The position numbers and the translations under genes are program-made. From Candidatus Altimarinota bacterium (lineage in GTDB: Bacteria > Patescibacteriota > Gracilibacteria > BD1-5 > UBA6164): 48,194 bases of DNA. Below are positions 6,728 to 33,930 of the stretch, piece after piece. The notes under the pieces are model-generated. The model was not told the origin of the DNA. It was given only the letters and a program-made list of their open reading frames with translations, and ran no database searches. The stretch covers positions 1-48,194 of the forward strand of contig JAUXPL010000037.1 of assembly GCA_030683605.1 (NCBI GenBank). Direction: 5' to 3'. Numbering within the stretch: the stretch's first letter is position 1; each line of letters opens with the position of its first letter.

Positions 6728-9322
6728 TTAATATGTTCAATCATTGCTCATCTTTCATAAAAAAATATCATATGATGAACTACTTCTTGCAAATCAAATT
6801 CCAAATAAATTAAACCAACTAGATAAAAAATTTCATCAAACATATAGATTTCAATCACTATCAATATTTAATCATATAGCATTTTCTCATCCAGTTCATC
6901 AAGCTCTTTTTCACCATGTTAAATTTCAATTACTATCTAGTTTTATTAAAAATATATCATTTGATCAAAATGTAGTTAAACTATGTCCAAATACGGTTAC
7001 AGGATCATAATACTCTCAAAATATGAACACATTTCAGTTATCATCAACTTTAACAGATTTTCATGATTCACTTTGTCATGAAACAGATTGTTTTCACCAT
7101 ATTGCAGTTCATGATGAATTCAATTTTACTACATATGAGTTATAATAACTTCATGCATTAGTTAAATTTACTCACATAAAATCAGCATTTAATTGGTATC
7201 ATCATGTTATATATATATTTCAATCATTGTCTGTTGTAATAGATTCTCAAGTATCATATCAAGTACTTCATCAAGCTCTTTTTGACCAAACTCCAGATCA
7301 ACTAGTAGGATTTAATTTGCTTACATATATATCTGTAGCACTTGAATTTCAAGTCAAACTAAATCAAAATATATTAGCAGTTTGAGCAAAAGTACCTATA
7401 GCATACAAATTTCAATCATTATCTAAAGCTAAGTCATTAATATATTCACTTAATCAACCTGTTGTTTGTTTAAGCCATATTATATTTCAGTCTGAGTCTA
7501 GCTTTGCGATAAAACTACATGTATATCATCAAGGATTATAACTTGTTCAAAATAATGTTGCCCAAGCTGAAGTTCAACCAAATTCTCAAGCAAAATAAAT
7601 ATATCAATCATCTGAAATCTTAATTGCTTTTCATGTTTCTCATGTTGAACTAGAATTAGAACCTCACTTTTGTACCCAAATAAGATTTCAATCACTATCT
7701 AATTTTGCTATAAATAGATCACTACCTCATCATCAATAAGTAGTCATACTTTGTCAGAAGAAATCAGCTGTTCATACAAACTTTCATGTTAAATATACAT
7801 TTCAATCAGTATCTACTGCTACAGCTGTTCACTCGTCATGCCCTGTTCATCAGAATTTCTTAGCCCAAACCAAATCTCAATTAGGATTAATTTTTGCCAC
7901 AAATCAATCGTTATAATTTATATTTGTTGTTAATACTTGTCATAATATGTTTGTTGATTCTAAAAATTGTCAAGTAATATAAATATTTCAATTATTATCT
8001 ATAGTTTGTCAAAATATTCTGTCACTTCTTGTATCTCATATTTTTTTAGCAAAATATTTAACACATTTGTTTCAAACCTTTGAGAATCAACTATTACATG
8101 TAATATTAGTTAATTCATTATTTAAAAAAACACTTCAGTTACTGCATAATAATGTTCAACTAGATGTTTGATTTCAATTTGTTATACTTCAAGTTTTTGT
8201 TACTAGTATTGTATTTCAATGAAGTAGATCATTATAACTATATCAATTATTATTTCAGCTAGCACAATTTAAGTTGTTTATATTGTCTAAAGGAATACTT
8301 CATGCTAAATTATTATTTACGAAATTTGCTGCATATTTAATAGCTTCAGCTGAAGGTGCGTTAGTATTAATGTTTATTAATACCAAATTGGCTATTTCTC
8401 ATTTGTTATCAATTAATGATCAACTATAAGCATCTTGTAGTCATTTAATTAATTCAATTCTTGCACTTGAATCTATTTTGTTAGTTAAATTATTGCATGA
8501 TCAAGTATCAGAATAAGCAAGTAATTTACTTGTACTGAAATCAAATCATCAATCATATTTGAATTTGCTTGTTCTGAATGAAGATGGTAGATTTTTGTAA
8601 CCATTGTATACTAATCTTTTTTCATTAATAATTTGCTCTAAGTCGTTAATGTTAGTATCATTTGTAATAATAGTTGGCACAGTTAACATATTACAAGTAT
8701 TACCACTTAAACTTTTTGCAGTTAATCAATTATAGTTTCAAGTCACATATGCAGTCGCTTCAGTTGTTGCTGCATTAGCTACTATACCTATAAACTCAAG
8801 CCCTCACTCAGTCTCTCCCAAAGGGAGAGAAGAAGCTACATTATTCATTATTCATTTTTCATTATTCATTGATATAGTATCCCCTTCTATTATTCCTCAT
8901 ATTTCATATTCATTTTTATTATTTATAACTGAGTAAGTATATTCTTTATTAGTAGAAGGATCTAACGGTATTTTATTTAGTTTAGATAAATTAGCATGAA
9001 CAGTTTCTCAAATAGTTCATTGATTCCAAACTATTGCTCAACTATAAGTAATATTTACTCAAGCAGTAGGATTTGGATATTTTCCAGCTTCAAGATTAAA
9101 TAATTCTAGACTTGTTTTGATGCTTGATATATCACTTATTCTTGTACTGTCTCTAGCATCACTACTATATCATTGCAAACTAATAAATGCAATTGTTCAA
9201 AGAATTGCTAGGATTGTTATTACTACTATTAGCTCTACTAGGGTAAATCCTTTATTATTCTTCCCTTTTCAAGGGAAGTGCCTGAAAGGCGATGGGTTAC
9301 TTTGTATTTTTCTTTTATTCAT
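6728..9322 (-). CDS. Pilin-like surface protein with SBBP beta-propeller repeats
   Basis: This 864-residue protein starts with a prepilin leader followed by KGFTLVELIVVITILAIL, the type IV pilin/pseudopilin methylation motif and hydrophobic helix; cleavage is expected between G and F. A pilin-like head follows (about residues 45-300). The C-terminal half (about 430-864) has about nine SBBP-type repeats of the form DGNVYLTGKF...DLFIAKLDSDGNLIW, probably a beta-propeller. Nearly every Gly of DGN is TGA. The leader (about residues 8-21) and residues about 159-174 are encoded by palindromic elements. It is probably assembled with the type IV pilus machinery (PilT at 15055) and acts at the cell surface, perhaps in attachment. 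Confidence 0.85.
8799..8875. repeat. Palindromic element inside the pilin/SBBP gene
   Basis: The core TCTCTCCCAAAGGGAGAGA (8812-8830) is a GC-rich palindrome followed by GAAGCTACA, as in other copies, and by repeated ATTCATTATT units. It is read in frame and adds about 15-25 residues to the pilin-like head. Confidence 0.7.
9260..9299. repeat. Palindromic element inside the prepilin leader
   Basis: CTTCCCTTTTCAAGGGAAG (9260-9278) plus the tail GCCTGAAAGGCGATGGGTTA has the form of copies at 27866 and 30590. It encodes leader residues about 8-21 just before the pilin cleavage motif. Confidence 0.75.
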
Positions 9323-9360
9323 AATATTTAGTTTTATTAAAACAGATTTATTATACAAAA

Positions 9361-10004: not shown

Positions 10005-12314
10005 CTATACTTTTCTAACAGGAGCAATTTTTATATTCATTTTTACTACTCATTTTCAGCTAAATGCAATTTCTGCCAATTCTCAGTTTAGTGATGTGAT
10101 TATTCAATTACCAAATTTAGGATGACTGACTCTATCTCCTCTTGCAAACATTGAAACATCATTATTTGCTTTCACTATTACTTTTGGTTTACCTGTAAAT
10201 CATCAACTAGTACTTCAGAAACTAAATGAATCACTACTTGAATCTGAACTTGTTCAAAATGAAAATCATCATTTATTCAAATATTCTCACAAATCATAGT
10301 TTACTAAGTATTCTAGAGGTATTTCTTTTAAAAATCTTGATTCAGGATTTCTCACAAAATCTCAGAAATTGAATCTCTCTTTTGCTCTAGATATGTATAA
10401 TTCTTCTCTCGCTCTAGTCATAGCTACATACATAAGTCTTCTTTCTTCTTCCAATGCTGCTTGTTCTCATATAGACCTAAAACTAGGGAAAAGTCATTCT
10501 TCTAATCATGTAACAAATACTCTTTTTTCTTCTAATCATTTAGATGTATGAATAGTCATCAATGTAACATAATCACTTCGCTCATCATTTTTATCCATAT
10601 CTGTTATCAAAGCCACTTCTTCTAGGAAAATTGCCAAACTCTCTCTTGGTTCCATTCAGTTATATTGTGTCGCTACATTTACTAGCTCATCAATATTTTC
10701 TAGTTTTGATTCTTTTTCCTCTTTACTTAGTCATTCTCATATGTATTCTTCATATTTTGTTAATTTTACTATTTCTCTAATTAGCTCAGCTACGATTTTT
10801 TTATGTGAAAAATGAACCAAGTCTTCAAATATTATATTGAAATTTTTGATTGCATTTTTAGCTCAGTTGTTTAGTTCTTCAACTTCATCTATATTCTCAA
10901 TAATTTGTGGGTAAGATAAGCCAAAATTATCTCTGTAATTATCCATTGTTTCAATTGATTTAGCTCATATTTTTCTAGTTGGTGTATTGATTATTCTCTT
11001 CATTGCTATTACATCATTTGGATTGTGGATTACTTTTAAATAACTTAATAAATCTTTTATTTCTTTTCTATCGTAGAATTTTTGACCTCATATTACTCTA
11101 TATGGTATATTTGCTATCATCAAGGCTTCTTCTATTTTTCTAGATTGAGCATTTGTACGGTACAATATTAAATTATCTTTGTAATTATTAATTACAGGAC
11201 ACCCACAAGGGGCATCCCTACATTTATCACATTGTAGGGGTTTCCCTTGTGGTAACCCTGAACTGGATTTATTTTTAATTATATTTACTATAATACTAGC
11301 TTCAGTTTTATCATCTGGTGCTTCTATATAACTAATATGTTCTCACTCACCATTATCTGTCCATAACTCTTTTTTGATACCTGATTTATTATTATTTATT
11401 ACTGCATTTGCTCATGCTATAATTTTTTTTGTTGATCTATAGTTTTGTTCTAGTTTTACTATTAATGCATCGTTGTAATCTTTTCTGAAATTTATTATAT
11501 TTCTCATATCTGCTCATCTCCAAGAATATATTGATTGGCTATCGTCTCATACAACAGCTAGATTATTATATTTACTTGCTAATAATTTCACTATTTCATA
11601 TTGTGGAGCATTTGTATCCTGATACTCATCCACCATCAGATATTTATATCTTTCTTGATACTCATTAAGTATTTTTGGAATTCTTAGTACTGCTAACGTT
11701 TTCACTAATATATCATCAAAATCCATAGCATTGTTTAAAGCTAAATCTTTTTCATATTCAATATAAGCTTTGTAGACTACTTCTTTTATACTAGAATCTA
11801 CTTCTGCCTCGTATCATTTTGCTGTTATTAAATTATTTTTTGCATTGCTTATAAAAAAAGCTATTTGTCTTGCGGGAAACTCTTTTTCATCTAGGTTAAA
11901 TCTATTTTTGAGAATATTTTTTAGTACTGATAATTTGTCTGATTCATCATATATTACGAAATCTTTTTTTAATCAGATAGCTAATTCATCTGATAAATAT
12001 CTAGATAATACGTCTTTTAGTACAAATATTCCTATCGAGTGAAAAGTACCAATAAGTGGAAAATTTGCTTTAGTATATACACTTCTAGGTGCTTCTACTC
12101 ATAGTGTTTTAGCTACTCTTTCCCTCATTTCTCATGCTGCTTTATTTGTAAATGTTACCATCATTATTTCTGACTGATTTATTCACTTATCTCTTATCAT
12201 ATAATTTACTCTAGCTGTAAGTGTAGCTGTTTTTCAACTACCAGCTCAAGCTATAATCAAAAGAGGTCAATCTATTTTGTTTTTTGCTTCTTCTTGTTTT
12301 GGGTTTAAATTCAT
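10005..12314 (-). CDS. pcrA: UvrD/PcrA-type superfamily 1 DNA helicase
   Basis: The 769-residue 3'-5' DNA helicase acts in repair and replication-fork upkeep. Helicase motifs in order: LIIAGAGSGKTATL (Walker A, about residue 21-34), [11 protein letters not shown] (Ia), VDEYQDTN (II), [15 protein letters not shown] (III), VKLEQNYRS (IV), [11 protein letters not shown] (V) and [10 protein letters not shown] (VI). Residues about 347-373 are encoded by a palindromic element (11195-11275) that sits in a loop just before [13 protein letters not shown]. The C-terminal tail is Ser/Gly-rich and then has a short [16 protein letters not shown] end like the PcrA/UvrD tail domain. The length is normal for the family apart from the insertion. 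Confidence 0.94.
11195..11275. repeat. Palindromic element inside pcrA
   Basis: CCACAAGGGGCATCCCTACA (11202-11221) is nearly complementary to the stretch ending at 11252, with a short AT-rich loop. It is far GC-richer than the surrounding gene. In frame it encodes a segment containing [13 protein letters not shown] and DAPCGCP that has no place in ordinary PcrA. Confidence 0.8.
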
Positions 12315-17192: not shown

Positions 17193-18185
17193 CTAGTTGT
17201 ATTTCTTCAGTAAATTAACAATTTCATATTCTTTTTTGACTCATTTATACATAGATTTGATACTCGGAGTACCACTTGCCAAAATCAGTTTATTTCAATG
17301 TAATTCTGTTATTTTTTCTGCTACTTCTATAGTATTATATCTAGGAGCTGAGTCTGAAATATATGAATTATCATGTTCTTCATCTATTATAATCAGTCAC
17401 AAATCATTGTATGGATAAAATATTGCAGATCTAGTTCATACGACGATTTTTGCATTAGAACTATTTATTTCTAGCCAATATTTAGTCTTGGTAGCATCTG
17501 TTATTGTAGAATTTAATATATATACATTATTTCAAAATACATCTTTTATTTTTGCTGCAAGTTGATTAGTTAATATTATTTCAGGTATCAAAAACAGAGT
17601 TTGTTTTCATTTATCTAGAGTCTCTTTTATCAACTTAATATATATTTCTGTCTTACCACTACCTGTTAAACCATATAATAATATTTTCTTGTTTTCTGTA
17701 GTTAGTATATTATTTAATACTTCATTTTGCTCACTAGAAAGAGTAATTTTATGATTAAATGTATACTCCATTTTTATACCAATTAAATTTTTCCCTTTTC
17801 CAAATGGAATCCCCACAGAGGGAGGGATTAATGAAATTTTGTCTTTTAAAATTCTATCTCTTAAATTTTTAGGAAAAAATAAATTTATACTATTATGAAT
17901 AGCAGTGAAATAATAACTAGCAATCCATCTAGCTAAATCGATTCTATATCAAGATAAAAAGATATTAGGGTTTTTGATACTTACTATAGATTTGATTTTT
18001 GATTCATCATATTCTCATCTAGGACTATCTGAAATATCTATAACGACTCATATTTCTATGAATTCTCTAATAGGTATTTCTATTATTTGTCATACTTTTA
18101 TATCAGCTACTAAAAAATCAGGAACAATATATGTAAGTCCTATATCATCAAAAGTCTTGGAAAATGGTGAAACTAATACATACAT
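17193..18185 (-). CDS. priA: PriA-like primosomal protein lacking the C-terminal half
   Basis: PriA restarts stalled forks. The 330-residue product has the N-terminal DNA-binding region (VSPFSKTFDDIGLTY, GQIIEIPIREFIEIG) and the first helicase domain: LLYGLTGSGKTEIY (Walker A, about 155-168), LIPEIILTNQLA, IVVGTRSAIFYPY, LIIIDEEHDNSYISD (DEEH box, Walker B) and ILASGTPSIKSM. It ends in TAG soon after, so the zinc-binding Cys and the second helicase domain are missing; normal PriA has about 700 residues. Residues about 118-132 come from a palindromic element. It follows dnaX by 6 bases. It may be a loader without helicase activity, or a decaying gene. Confidence 0.85.
17790..17832. repeat. Palindromic element inside priA
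   Basis: A GC-rich run (TTCCCTTTTCCAAATGGAAT, then CCCCACAGAGGGAGGGATTA) shares its start with TTCCCTTTCCAAGGGAAG copies. It encodes LIPPSVGIPFGKGKN between the N-terminal and helicase domains. It is more degenerate than other copies. Confidence 0.55.
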
Positions 18186-19700: not shown

Positions 19701-19713
19701 ATTATTCTAAATG

Positions 19714-19787
19714 CAGCCTTCCTCCCTAATTTTAGGGAGGAAATTTATGACCGTAGGGTGGTATCCTGTGGACAAAGGTGGGTTATT
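19714..19787. repeat. Palindromic element between dnaX and murE
   Basis: The hairpin CTTCCTCCCTAATTTTAGGG/AGG is followed by CCGTAGGGTGGTATCCTGTG and GACAAAGGTGGGTTA. It matches, inverted, the long form at 25845 and 33805 that carries TTGTCCACAGGATAC. Confidence 0.8.
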
Positions 19788-25844: not shown

Positions 25845-25915
25845 TAACCTCTCACTTGTCCACAGGATACACCTTCGGCTAAATTCCCTTCTCCTTATCA
25901 GGAGAAAGAGGCTCA
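25845..25915. repeat. Palindromic element upstream of rnpB, long form
   Basis: ACCTCTCACTTGTCCACAGG then ATACACCTTCGGCTAAATTC and the hairpin CTTCTCCTTATCAGGAGAAA, ending GAGGCT. The same sequence occurs inverted inside miaB (29620-29691). TTGTCCACA differs by one base from the DnaA box TTATCCACA. Confidence 0.85.
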
Positions 25916-25963
25916 TTAGATTATTTTTTTTAAAAATAAATTAGAAAAAAAAAGATTTTTATG

Positions 25964-25972: not shown

Positions 25973-26390
25973 TTTTGTGAGAGCAGGTATCTACCCTTCG
26001 TAGCTTTATGCGAAGAAGGGAGGAAAGTCTGGACATCATGAGGAAAGCACAGAAGATAACGACTTCGGTTTAAGTATATAATAAATAAAACTTGAATACC
26101 ACTAGTGCCACAGAAACTATACTATCCCGCTTTAGCGGGAGAAAGATGAAAAGTCATTTGGTGTTTATTATATTTACTGCATTGTTTACAGTGTGTGAAT
26201 ATAATCAAGCTACAGATGATTACACTACGGTGTGATGGTAAACTGTGTGTGATGCAATGGGAATGGTCGCGCATTAAAGTTAATACCTCTATTGCTATAA
26301 TGCGGGATACTCAGCTCGAGCCTATGAGTGATTGTAGGCCTAGATAGATTGATACCTAGATACAGAATCCGGCTTATTACTCTCACAAAA
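25973..26390 (+). ncRNA. rnpB: RNase P RNA (bacterial type A)
   Basis: This catalytic RNA trims the 5' leader of pre-tRNA. The ends TTTTGTGAGAG and CTCTCACAAAA pair as P1. The conserved core is plain: GAGGAAAGTCTGGAC (CR-I, one or two changes from GAGGAAAGTCCGGGC), CCACAGAAAC (CR-II/III region), GATGGTAAACTG, and the final ACAGAATCCGGCTTA (CR-V). An extra GC-rich hairpin, TCCCGCTTTAGCGGGA, lies in the P12 region. The total of about 418 bases is at the long end of the usual size. It is GC-richer than the flanking DNA, as expected for structured RNA. Confidence 0.96.
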
Positions 26391-26409
26391 TATAATTAAA
26401 ACACTTTAC

Positions 26410-27162: not shown

Positions 27163-27228
27163 CTTATCCTCCAGCTTATCAAGGCAACAGACCACCCCCT
27201 AACCCCCTCCTTAGTAAGGAGGGGGGAA
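27163..27228. repeat. Palindromic element between adk and the Trm11-like gene
   Basis: CCACCCCCTAACCCCCTCCT then TAGTAAGGAGGGGGGAATA, very like the copy inside the next gene (27661) but inverted. Confidence 0.85.
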
Positions 27229-27250
27229 TAATACACTATAAGGATAAAAT

Positions 27251-28525
27251 ATGATTTGATTTCAATTGGGTAGAGAATATAAACTAAGTGTTGCAGAAAT
27301 ATTAGTAGTTTTTCCACTTGGGAAGACTGTTTATTTAAGTAATGATTTTTTAATATTAGAAAATTTAGATAAAGAAGAAGTTTTAAAAAAAGCTAACAAT
27401 CTATGATGAACTATCAAAGTAGTAGAAATAGTTAACTCAAGTGTAGCTAGTGAAGCTGAATGATATGAATGAAAATTTAAGTACTGAATAAGTATTTTTT
27501 GAGAAAAGAAAAATCTGAAATCAATATTAGTATGAATTAAAAAAGAACTAAAAGAATTGTGAGTATCATCTAGATTTATTAACAAGGATTTTCAAAATCT
27601 AAGCTCAGCACAAATACTATGAGAAAAATTATTGAAATCTCAAACAGATTACAACCTTATATTCCCCCGCCTTACTAAGGAGGGGGCTAGGGGGTGGTCT
27701 AATATTAGGGAAGAAAAATTAGGGAATTATTTTTTCTGAAAAACTATTTGGATACAAGATATATTCAACTATTCAAAAAGAGACTATGAAAAAGACAGAG
27801 ATATGCAGACTGGTATGCTACCTCCAAAATTGTGTCAAATGATGATAAACATTGCATCTTTTACTCTTCCCTTTTTATCCGAAGGTGTATCCTTTAGGGC
27901 AAGGGAAGTACCCGAAGGAGGATGGGTTAAAACCGACAATCAACATGTAATATACGACCCATTTGTATGATTATGAACGGTATTGATAGAATCTATTTTG
28001 ATGTGAAATAAGTCAGTTTATGGTAGTGATTTGAATGAAAAAATGGTAGAACATACGAAAAATAATATAATTAATTTTTGTAATAATGAAGATATTAAAT
28101 TAGAAAATCTAGAAATAGTCAAATTGAATGCAAAATTTATAGAAGAATCAGAATTTTTCAAAAAAGGAGTTGACTCAATAGTAACAGAGTGATATTTGTG
28201 AGAAGTAATGACTCAAAATAATATCTCACTAGATAGAATAGACAAACAAAAAAAATCATTACTAGAATTGTATGATAGATTCTTTGAATGATTAAAAAAG
28301 ATAAAATATTCATGAAATCTGGTAATATGTTTTCCTTTCTGGGAAATGAAATGAAAATACATATATTTTATTGAAATATATGATTTGCTAAAAAAATATT
28401 GTAATATCGAATCAATGTATCCAGCATATTATTCAGAAATATCTGCTACTAAAGCTGGAAGTTTACTATATAAAAGGGATAAACAATTAGTATGAAGAGA
28501 AATATTCAAACTAACTATAAAATAA
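27251..28525 (+). CDS. Trm11/THUMP-like RNA guanine-N2 methyltransferase
   Basis: The 424-residue SAM enzyme has the layout of Trm11-type methyltransferases. A degraded N-terminal domain (MIGFQLGREYKLSVAEI; SSRFINKDFQNLSSAQI) is followed by IWIQDIFNYSKRDYEKDRD and QTGMLPPKLCQMMINIA, the linker typical of the group, then YDPFVGLGTVLIESILMG (SAM loop) and GSDLNEKMVEHT. The catalytic (D/N)-P-P-Y place reads DSIVTEGYLGE, a TEPYLG-like motif with Gly (TGA) for Pro. Two palindromic elements encode residues about 137-152 and 205-227. The substrate is probably tRNA. It shares a terminator with the convergent gene at 28568. Confidence 0.82.
27661..27700. repeat. Palindromic element 1 inside the Trm11-like gene
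   Basis: ATTCCCCCGCCTTACTAAGG then AGGGGGCTAGGGGGTGGTCT. It encodes FPRLTKEGARGW just before the conserved QDIFNYSKRD block. It is almost the same sequence as the intergenic copy at 27190. Confidence 0.85.
27866..27932. repeat. Palindromic element 2 inside the Trm11-like gene
   Basis: CTTCCCTTTTTATCCGAAGG, TGTATCCTTTAGGGCAAGGG, AAGTACCCGAAGGAGGATGG. It encodes LPFLSEGVSFRAREVPEGGW between MINIA and the SAM loop. Its tail matches the copies at 9260 and 30590. Confidence 0.85.
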
Positions 28526-28929: not shown

Positions 28930-30456
28930 TTAAATATCAATATATTCTCCTAAAAGTACATATCTGTGTAACTCTGTTATTTTTACATCTACTAAATCTC
29001 ATATATTTACTCATTTTACTTTTGGAAAATATATTTCTTTGAAATTCCTAGTTCTTCAGAAATATTCTTCATCTTTTTCTCATGAAATAAGTATTTTTTC
29101 TACACTTCATATCATTGCAGTATTTCTTTTAGTTACAGATTCTAATAATAAATCATTTAATTTATGCCATCTTTCAGCTTTTGTATCATTACTTATATCA
29201 TCTGGATATATTTTTTCAGCGATTGTTCATTTCCTCACACTATATCTAGCATTGAAAACAAAATCAAATTCACATTCTTCAAATGCTTTTACAGTTTCTA
29301 GAAACATTTCCTCTGTTTCTCATGAATATCAAACGATTATATCAGTAGAAATAGAAAAATATGGATCTCTAGTTCTTAAGTATTCAATCATTTTCTTGAA
29401 ATCATTGTAACTATGTTTTCTGTTCATTCTTTTAAGCATTTTATCAGAACCAGATTGTAATGCAAAGTGTAAGTAATTACACATCTTATCCAATTCAAAA
29501 TGAGCATCCAATATATCTTGAGTCATATCATGAGGATTAGAACTAGTAAATCTGATTCTATCCAATCATTCTATTTTATTTATTTCATCCAAAAGTTGCC
29601 TAAATGGTGATTTAAAACATGTAGCCTCTTTCTCCTGATAAGGAGAAGGGAATTTAGCCGAAGGTGTATCCTGTGGACAAGAGAGAGGTTTTATATTCCA
29701 CTTTCCTTTTTCTTCATTCCAATATTTTCTATCTACCCATTGTTTACCGTATGAATTTACATTTTGACCTACTAAAGTAATCTCTTTTGCACCATTTTTT
29801 ACAGCTTCTTTTGCTTCATTTACTATATCTTCTATACTTCTACTATTTTCTTTTCATCTCGTGTAAGGCACAATACAAAATGTACAATAATTATCACATC
29901 CAGTTTGAATTATGATTGTAGCTTGTGCTGGATTTTCTCTAAGTTGTTTTGATTTCAAATAGTCATCAAATGATGAATCATTTCAAATAGCTTCTTTTAA
30001 TATATGAGTCAATATTAATGGTAAATATTTAGTATCCTCTATTCTAAGTGTGAAATCTAGTTTTCATTCTGATCTAGGAAATAATTTATCATCATTATTA
30101 AAAATTGCACTATCATTATTTACTAGTGTAATATTCTTAGCTTTGTTTTTATCTCTTTTGTAATCATTTAAATATTTAGCATCAATTCAAGTCTTTCTCA
30201 CCATACAACCTGTAATTCAAACTAGAATATTTTTTTTATTTTTTTTATTTTCTCTACTGATATCTGTAAGCATACCAAAAACTCTATCTTCTCATTTTTG
30301 TCTAACTGAACATGTATTAAAAATCACTAAATCTGCATCTTTCCAATCATTTATTTTCACAAAACCTGACTGTAGTAAAATCATATTGATTTTTTCGCTA
30401 TCAGCTTGATTCATAGCACATCCAAATGTCTGTATATAATATTTTCTAAGTGTCAT
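28930..30456 (-). CDS. miaB: tRNA-2-methylthio-N6-isopentenyladenosine synthase MiaB
   Basis: The 508-residue radical-SAM methylthiotransferase modifies A37 of t[23 protein letters not shown] is the MTTase N-terminal domain with its first Cys; further Cys lie at NTCSVR and [19 protein letters not shown] holds the CxxxCxxC that binds the radical-SAM cluster. [41 protein letters not shown] and TDIIVGYSGETEEMF are typical MiaB blocks, and the end ([15 protein letters not shown]) is a TRAM domain. Residues about 256-279 come from a palindromic element between NSYG and the SPFRQLL helix, which explains part of the length above the usual 440-480. Confidence 0.94.
29620..29691. repeat. Palindromic element inside miaB, long form
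   Basis: Reverse complement of the rnpB-upstream copy (25845-25915), identical over most of its length, including TTGTCCACAGGATACACC. In frame it encodes a stretch containing [20 protein letters not shown]. Confidence 0.9.
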
Positions 30457-30480: not shown

Positions 30481-30644
30481 TCAAAGGGTTAAAACCCTTT
30501 GTTGAAATGTATCTACCCCTACCCCCCTGCGGGGTATACCCCAAGAGTACTTCCTTCGGGGCGCCCCCCCTGAAAGGGGCAGAAAATTTTCTTCCCTTTC
30601 CAAGGGAAGTACTCGTAACGCTGTGAAGAGGGATGGGTTAGAAC
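30481..30644. repeat. Cluster of palindromic elements upstream of miaB
   Basis: Three hairpins: CAAAGGGTTAAAACCCTTTG (30483-30502); a CG-rich block with CCCCTGCGGGG and TTCCTTCGGGGCGCCCCCCC (30520-30590); and CTTCCCTTTCCAAGGGAAGT (30591-30610) plus the tail AGGGATGGGTTA. This fills most of the 280 bases between miaB and the deaminase gene. Confidence 0.8.
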
Positions 30645-33719: not shown

Positions 33720-33804
33720 AACAATTTTAATTTTTATTGGTTAATATTTAGCTATAATAATTATATTTTACATAATTACAAGAAAAAATAAATCATATTT
33801 ACAT

Positions 33805-33930
33805 AACTCACCCTTGTCCACAGGATACACATTCGGATAAATTCCCTCTCTTACTTTATAGAGGGAGGACCAATAAATTATTATTTGTAGCCCCTTTCTC
33901 TTAAGTAAGAGAAAGGATACAGGATAGAGT
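33805..33930. repeat. Pair of palindromic elements between gltX and clpP
   Basis: Copy one (33805-33872): CTCACCCTTGTCCACAGGAT, ACACATTCGGATAAATTCCC, TCTCTTACTTTATAGAGGGA. Copy two, inverted (33887-33930): TTGTAGCCCCTTTCTCTTAA, GTAAGAGAAAGGATACAGGA, TAG. The rest of this 290-base intergenic region is plain AT-rich sequence. Confidence 0.88.

Follow-up and report, generated by a model that had tools for sequence, protein, structure and literature searches.

Two palindromic element families inserted in frame in a Trm11-like methyltransferase gene, at sites re-used by other families in related genomes

The Trm11-like gene at positions 27251-28525 (+ strand) of the window, that is, the whole 48,194-nt stretch of DNA analyzed here, contains two inserts which, with a probability of approximately 85%, represent copies from two mobile families of non-coding palindromes, inserted in frame at two permissive loops of a tRNA methyltransferase gene that still works. 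Multi-copy dispersal of the elements, insertion at sites that are empty in relatives, retention of the reading frame and re-use of the same sites by other families were all observed. The window is contig 25 of a 1.54-Mb genome (97% complete) in which TGA encodes glycine, and its GC content was found to be 24.6%.

Two inserts in a Trm11-like methyltransferase gene

Under genetic code 25, the gene encodes 424 aa, and the coordinates given for it in the sequence-only reading are correct. Its product matched PF01170 (Trm11-like/UPF0020 methyltransferase; E 1e-7) and TIGR01177 (E 4e-13), and a search with the family profile returned the archaeal Trm11 structures 5e71 (E 9e-10) and 5e72 as the closest solved structures. 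The match to TIGR01177 (tRNA (G10-N2) methyltransferase) amounted to 49 bits compared to a curated cut-off of 317, and the name was therefore kept at Trm11-like.

The first insert is a copy of element A at 27660-27701 (+ strand; 65.6 bits), covering residues approximately 137-150 and encoding a peptide that begins with FPRLTKEGARGW. In element A, an almost perfect hairpin of 10 bp, CCCCCGCCTT-ACT-AAGGAGGGGG, precedes a CTAGGGGGTGGTC tail, and the insert runs on to about position 27712, where it resembles a second repeat (CTAATATTAGGGA..). The second insert is a copy of element B2 at 27863-27932 (+ strand; 72.2 bits), covering residues approximately 205-228, which contains CTTCCCTTTTTATCCGAAGGTGTATCCTTTAGGGCAAGGGAAG and encodes a peptide that includes LPFLSEGVSFRAREVPEGGW. 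The net lengths of the two inserts, as taken from the 424-aa window protein versus the 380-aa orthologue of genome G004, were 51 bp (17 aa) and 81 bp (27 aa), respectively. Their GC contents were 53% and 46%, respectively, compared to 25% in the remainder of the gene. Two insertions of different kinds had been proposed at about these residues from the sequence, and this was borne out, A and B2 being separate families. The upstream near-copy of A described in the same reading is also present, between the adenylate-kinase and methyltransferase genes at 27188-27229 (69 bits), where 36 of 42 aligned bases match; it lies on the - strand, an inverted orientation that had gone unmentioned. An Rfam search of the neighborhood found the RNase P RNA alone (bacterial class A, RF00010), at 25975-26392, immediately upstream of the adenylate-kinase gene.

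As had been suggested, conserved blocks adjoin both sites, and site 2 lies between the GMLPPKL..MIN helix and the IYDPFVGLGT motif. Both sites are predicted from the alignment to be physical loops; an AlphaFold2 model built from five sequences had a pLDDT of 38.5, which was too low for use. The SAM-binding motifs flanking the inserts had been described as intact, and they are. Because of these intact motifs and of the purifying selection on the flanks (97 synonymous and 41 non-synonymous codon differences between the window and genome G002), the methyltransferase carrying both inserts probably works.

Dispersal of the element families

When the 1.54-Mb genome was searched with the 23-nt core of A at up to 3 mismatches, 28 places were found, and the B core was found in 36 places; the reversed control patterns gave 0 in both cases. 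Covariance-model matches (E up to 0.01) numbered at least 85 for A, at least 83 for B1 and at least 125 for B2, the B1 and B2 models overlapping in that each also detects related families. Similar element loads were found in G002 and G004, which belong to the same genus, and in G012 of another genus, and matches were near zero in G003, G007, G037 and G045. Among 287 genomes of the phylum, the A pattern was found in the window genome (G000) and, as weak matches, in two others, and nowhere else. Neither the A nor the B1 pattern was found in viral contigs, and the A pattern was not found in plasmids.

Elsewhere in the window, a B1 copy lies in frame inside the MiaB gene at 29620-29691 (+ strand, with the gene on the - strand; 90 bits), and the B1 model matched intergenic copies at 25845-25916 and 33803-33873 (both - strand) as well as an intergenic B1-like element at 19712-19786 (+ strand). 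The PriA-like ORF at 17193-18185 contains a B2-like element (17785-17831, + strand) that matches 5 other loci of its own genome, and the pilin-like ORF at 6728-9358 contains a GTAG-ended element (8800-8840, + strand).

Between MiaB and a dCMP-deaminase-like gene, GC-rich palindromic elements form a compound cluster of approximately 150 bp (30493-30644). Pilin-like paralogues are very numerous per genome in G002 and G004, and several A-model matches lie inside them, for example on G002 contig 11. The UvrD-like ORF at 10005-12314 has an odd cysteine-rich stretch around 11150, which may be a further insert.

Absence of the inserts from orthologues

Orthologue alignment showed that neither insert is ancestral in the family, in agreement with the sequence-only reading of these residues as insertions. 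Among 31 aligned proteins, insert 1 was present in the window and G002 only; G012 holds a different insert at that position, and the site is empty in the remainder. Insert 2 is missing from most of the 31 proteins, among them the orthologues of G001, G004 and G007. The DNA of G004 and G001 likewise shows an empty site at each of the two positions.

It could be argued that the two sites merely reflect the loop variation usual in the family and that their resemblance to repeats is incidental, and the length of site 2 does vary in the family, including in Peregrinibacteria-like relatives with long non-repeat loops. This explanation is scarcely credible, since the scores of the inserts against multi-copy families reach 65.6 and 72.2 bits, their GC content is twice that of the gene, and the corresponding sites of the nearest relatives are cleanly empty. 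For the window copies it is refuted by the core counts (28 and 36 compared to 0 in the controls) together with the empty sites.

The copies of insert 1 in the window and G002 are homologous, their alignment scoring 43 compared to -1 for the best shuffle. For insert 2, homology between these two genomes was not supported, the score being equal to that of the shuffles; loop 2 of G002 is long. The intergenic A copy (27188-27229) is common to the window, G002 and G004, and is absent from G001. In a tree of the flanking DNA, the window and G004 were grouped with 100% support, and the 5' part of the gene showed no grouping preference (5:6:6 informative sites). Insert 1 is common to the window and G002 despite the grouping of the window with G004, which calls for a further event, either its loss from G004 or the sorting of lineages or an exchange of genes.

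In-gene copies and their codons

When 57 copies were sampled, 15 were found inside ORFs of at least 200 aa (11 of 28 for A, 3 of 14 for B1 and 1 of 15 for B2), these fractions referring to the sampled loci and not to a full enumeration. All 15 were in frame and stop-free. The host genes, whose names outside the window were taken from HMM matches or sequence reading, include those of CysS, an NrnA-like DHH protein, MiaB, TatD, a spore-photoproduct-lyase-like (SPL-like) radical SAM protein, ABC-F, a PBP1C-like protein, Mfd, an AGOG-like glycosylase, an RNase-R-like OB/cold-shock protein and DnaE. The number of stop-free frames was 4 of 6 in A, 3 of 6 in B1 and 1 of 6 in B2, and the in-gene fraction ranks in the same order (A > B1 > B2). 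Code 11 and code 25 gave identical numbers of stop-free frames, so that the tolerability of the elements does not stem from TGA recoding.

The byp elements of yeast mitochondria are bypassed during translation. The hairpins described here could similarly be skipped in translation or removed from the RNA, so that the mature protein would be formed without them, and their GC-rich composition in an AT-rich genome, in genes such as DnaE and CysS, would suit such an explanation. It is nevertheless very unlikely, since bypassing would permit out-of-frame copies, whereas all of the sampled in-gene copies kept the frame and no frame-broken gene was seen among them.

Element A encodes the same peptide, P-L-x-x-K-E-G-x-R-G-W, repeatedly in unrelated genes, as might be expected if the inserted peptides had been domesticated and were useful to the enzyme, for example as an RNA-binding or regulatory loop. 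Codon comparisons point the other way. In insert 1, the window and G002 differ by 8 non-synonymous and 0 synonymous changes compared to 41 and 97, respectively, in the flanks (Fisher p 1e-4), and the hairpin is broken in G002. In nine comparisons of other shared in-gene A copies, pooled, 31 non-synonymous and 13 synonymous changes were found compared to 498 and 911 (p 4e-6). The reading frame was kept throughout the shared copies compared. One older shared copy has lost both amino-acid constraint and palindrome. This non-synonymous excess relative to the flanks, together with the occupation of the same sites by unrelated peptides of other families, makes domestication quite unlikely. Tolerated selfish DNA is the best reading because the element codons are free of amino-acid constraint while the flanks are conserved, and the inserts, if translated, would be neutral filler in the protein.

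In the ABC-F orthologue of G002, the A-derived peptide HPLTPSIQSDDNSYLVET has expanded to about four tandem in-gene copies.

Re-use of insertion sites

Loop 2 of the Trm11-like protein is occupied by B2 in the window, by A in G012, by a GTAG-ended family in G034 and by an A-like family in G026, the last two also being dispersed families, which amounts to four element families in four genera. Loop 1 carries different elements in two genera: in the window and G002 it holds A together with the second repeat, and in G012 it is occupied by a further dispersed family. The MiaB site is occupied by B1 in the window, by an A/D-type element in G004 and by one of B2 type in G001; G002 has no element there. 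At the site in the SPL-like gene, A was found in the window, B2-type elements in G004 and G002, and an apparently decayed element in G001, with the site empty in G012. The CysS site holds A in the window and G004 and a B2-type element in G002. In a reciprocal test starting from G012, a CCA-adding-like gene (identified by sequence) was found to carry A at the same loop in G012 and G002 and not in the window genome, and no counterpart was found for an RlmD-like gene or the AGOG gene.

At least three sites shared between genera were seen, compared to a uniform expectation that we roughly estimate at well below 0.1. By a similarly rough estimate, the expectation climbs to about one shared site if only 5% of codons tolerate inserts, and a selection filter alone could therefore give similar numbers. 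Instead of a small number of tolerated positions, the shared landing sites may reflect one targeting machinery, or recombination that swaps resident elements. The differing occupants of single sites among sister species (MiaB, SPL-like and CysS) would fit such a process, as would the independent between-genera hits at both Trm11 loops and in the CCA-adding-like gene. The sufficiency of a selection filter at about 5% tolerant codons argues against it, as does the fact that no common target sequence of the re-used sites was found, and it is regarded as possible but rather unlikely. More doubtful still is the proposal that one mobility system common to several unrelated palindrome families targets or swaps elements at fixed sites in housekeeping genes, the loops being exchanged like cassettes between species.

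If the inserts are mobile palindromes tolerated in permissive loops, the elements would move as short hairpin DNA mobilized in trans by an enzyme encoded outside them, and selection would remove most in-gene insertions. The survivors would be those of multiple-of-three length that are stop-free and lie in a surface loop, where they would decay neutrally as extra peptide. Few positions would tolerate inserts, and the same loops would thus be struck again by other families in other species.

A search for Y1_Tnp (RAYT/IS200 type) in G000, G002 and G004 found none. The Y1_Tnp genes of G012, G034, G015 and G019 resemble IS200 TnpA, and the G012 copy adjoins an unrelated hairpin. Mobilization by RAYT was therefore not supported. 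No target-site duplication was visible in the empty-site alignments. These two negative results, together with the sharing of insert 1 with G002 and not with G004, weigh against the reading of the inserts as mobile palindromes. The GTAG hairpin end is present in B1 and in the related 'GGCTACA' family/C-type family (TGTAGCC..) and absent in A and B2; short terminal inverted repeats (AGCCTCT...AGAGGTT) were found in B1 only.

Significance and comparison with known systems

The best-known case of in-gene palindromic elements is that of Rickettsia. The elements described here add a second, apparently unrelated case, from an uncultured group of bacteria in which TGA encodes glycine. Sister species offer empty sites as well as fresh and decayed ones, and how proteins absorb selfish DNA thereby becomes directly testable. 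The loops re-used by unrelated families form a natural map of where essential enzymes can accommodate 15-30 additional residues. Such re-use may point to strong filtering by selection or else to mobility directed at particular sites. For annotation, these results carry the warning that element-derived peptides are not conserved protein sequence.

In a search of the open-access literature, nothing relevant to palindromic elements in Gracilibacteria was found, most subscription papers being outside its scope. According to PMC10969869, Rickettsia palindromic elements (RPE; Ogata 2000, 2002) form several families of approximately 150 bp that occur in frame in unrelated housekeeping genes and in intergenic DNA. 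The elements described here resemble RPEs in their mode of insertion, being dispersed multi-copy palindromes that lie in frame in unrelated functional genes and are absent from orthologues, and element A, like the Rickettsia elements, encodes the same peptide repeatedly in unrelated genes. In contrast, they are about 40-75 bp long compared to the approximately 150 bp given for RPEs (PMC10969869), and they belong to another phylum, to a genome in which TGA encodes glycine, and to sites that are re-used by different families.

GTAG-/CGTC-tagged REPs are hairpins of 20-40 bp present in many copies, some of them in genes and sometimes two per gene (di Nocera et al. 2013, PMC3733652), and the recB genes of two Xanthomonas species carry different REPs at about the same site (PMC3733652). 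B1 and the related 'GGCTACA' family share the GTAG end with these REPs, whereas A and B2 have neither a GTAG nor a CGTC tag, and no REP-type tyrosine transposase was found in the window genome. As with MITEs, the elements are small, non-autonomous, inverted-repeat mobile DNA, and B1 has short terminal inverted repeats; unlike in MITEs, neither a parent transposon, as searched for with Y1_Tnp, nor a target-site duplication was found. The mode of insertion is thus like that of RPEs and intragenic REPs, a likeness by analogy that makes no claim to membership in their sequence families. The new part compared to these known systems is the re-use of the same sites by different families.
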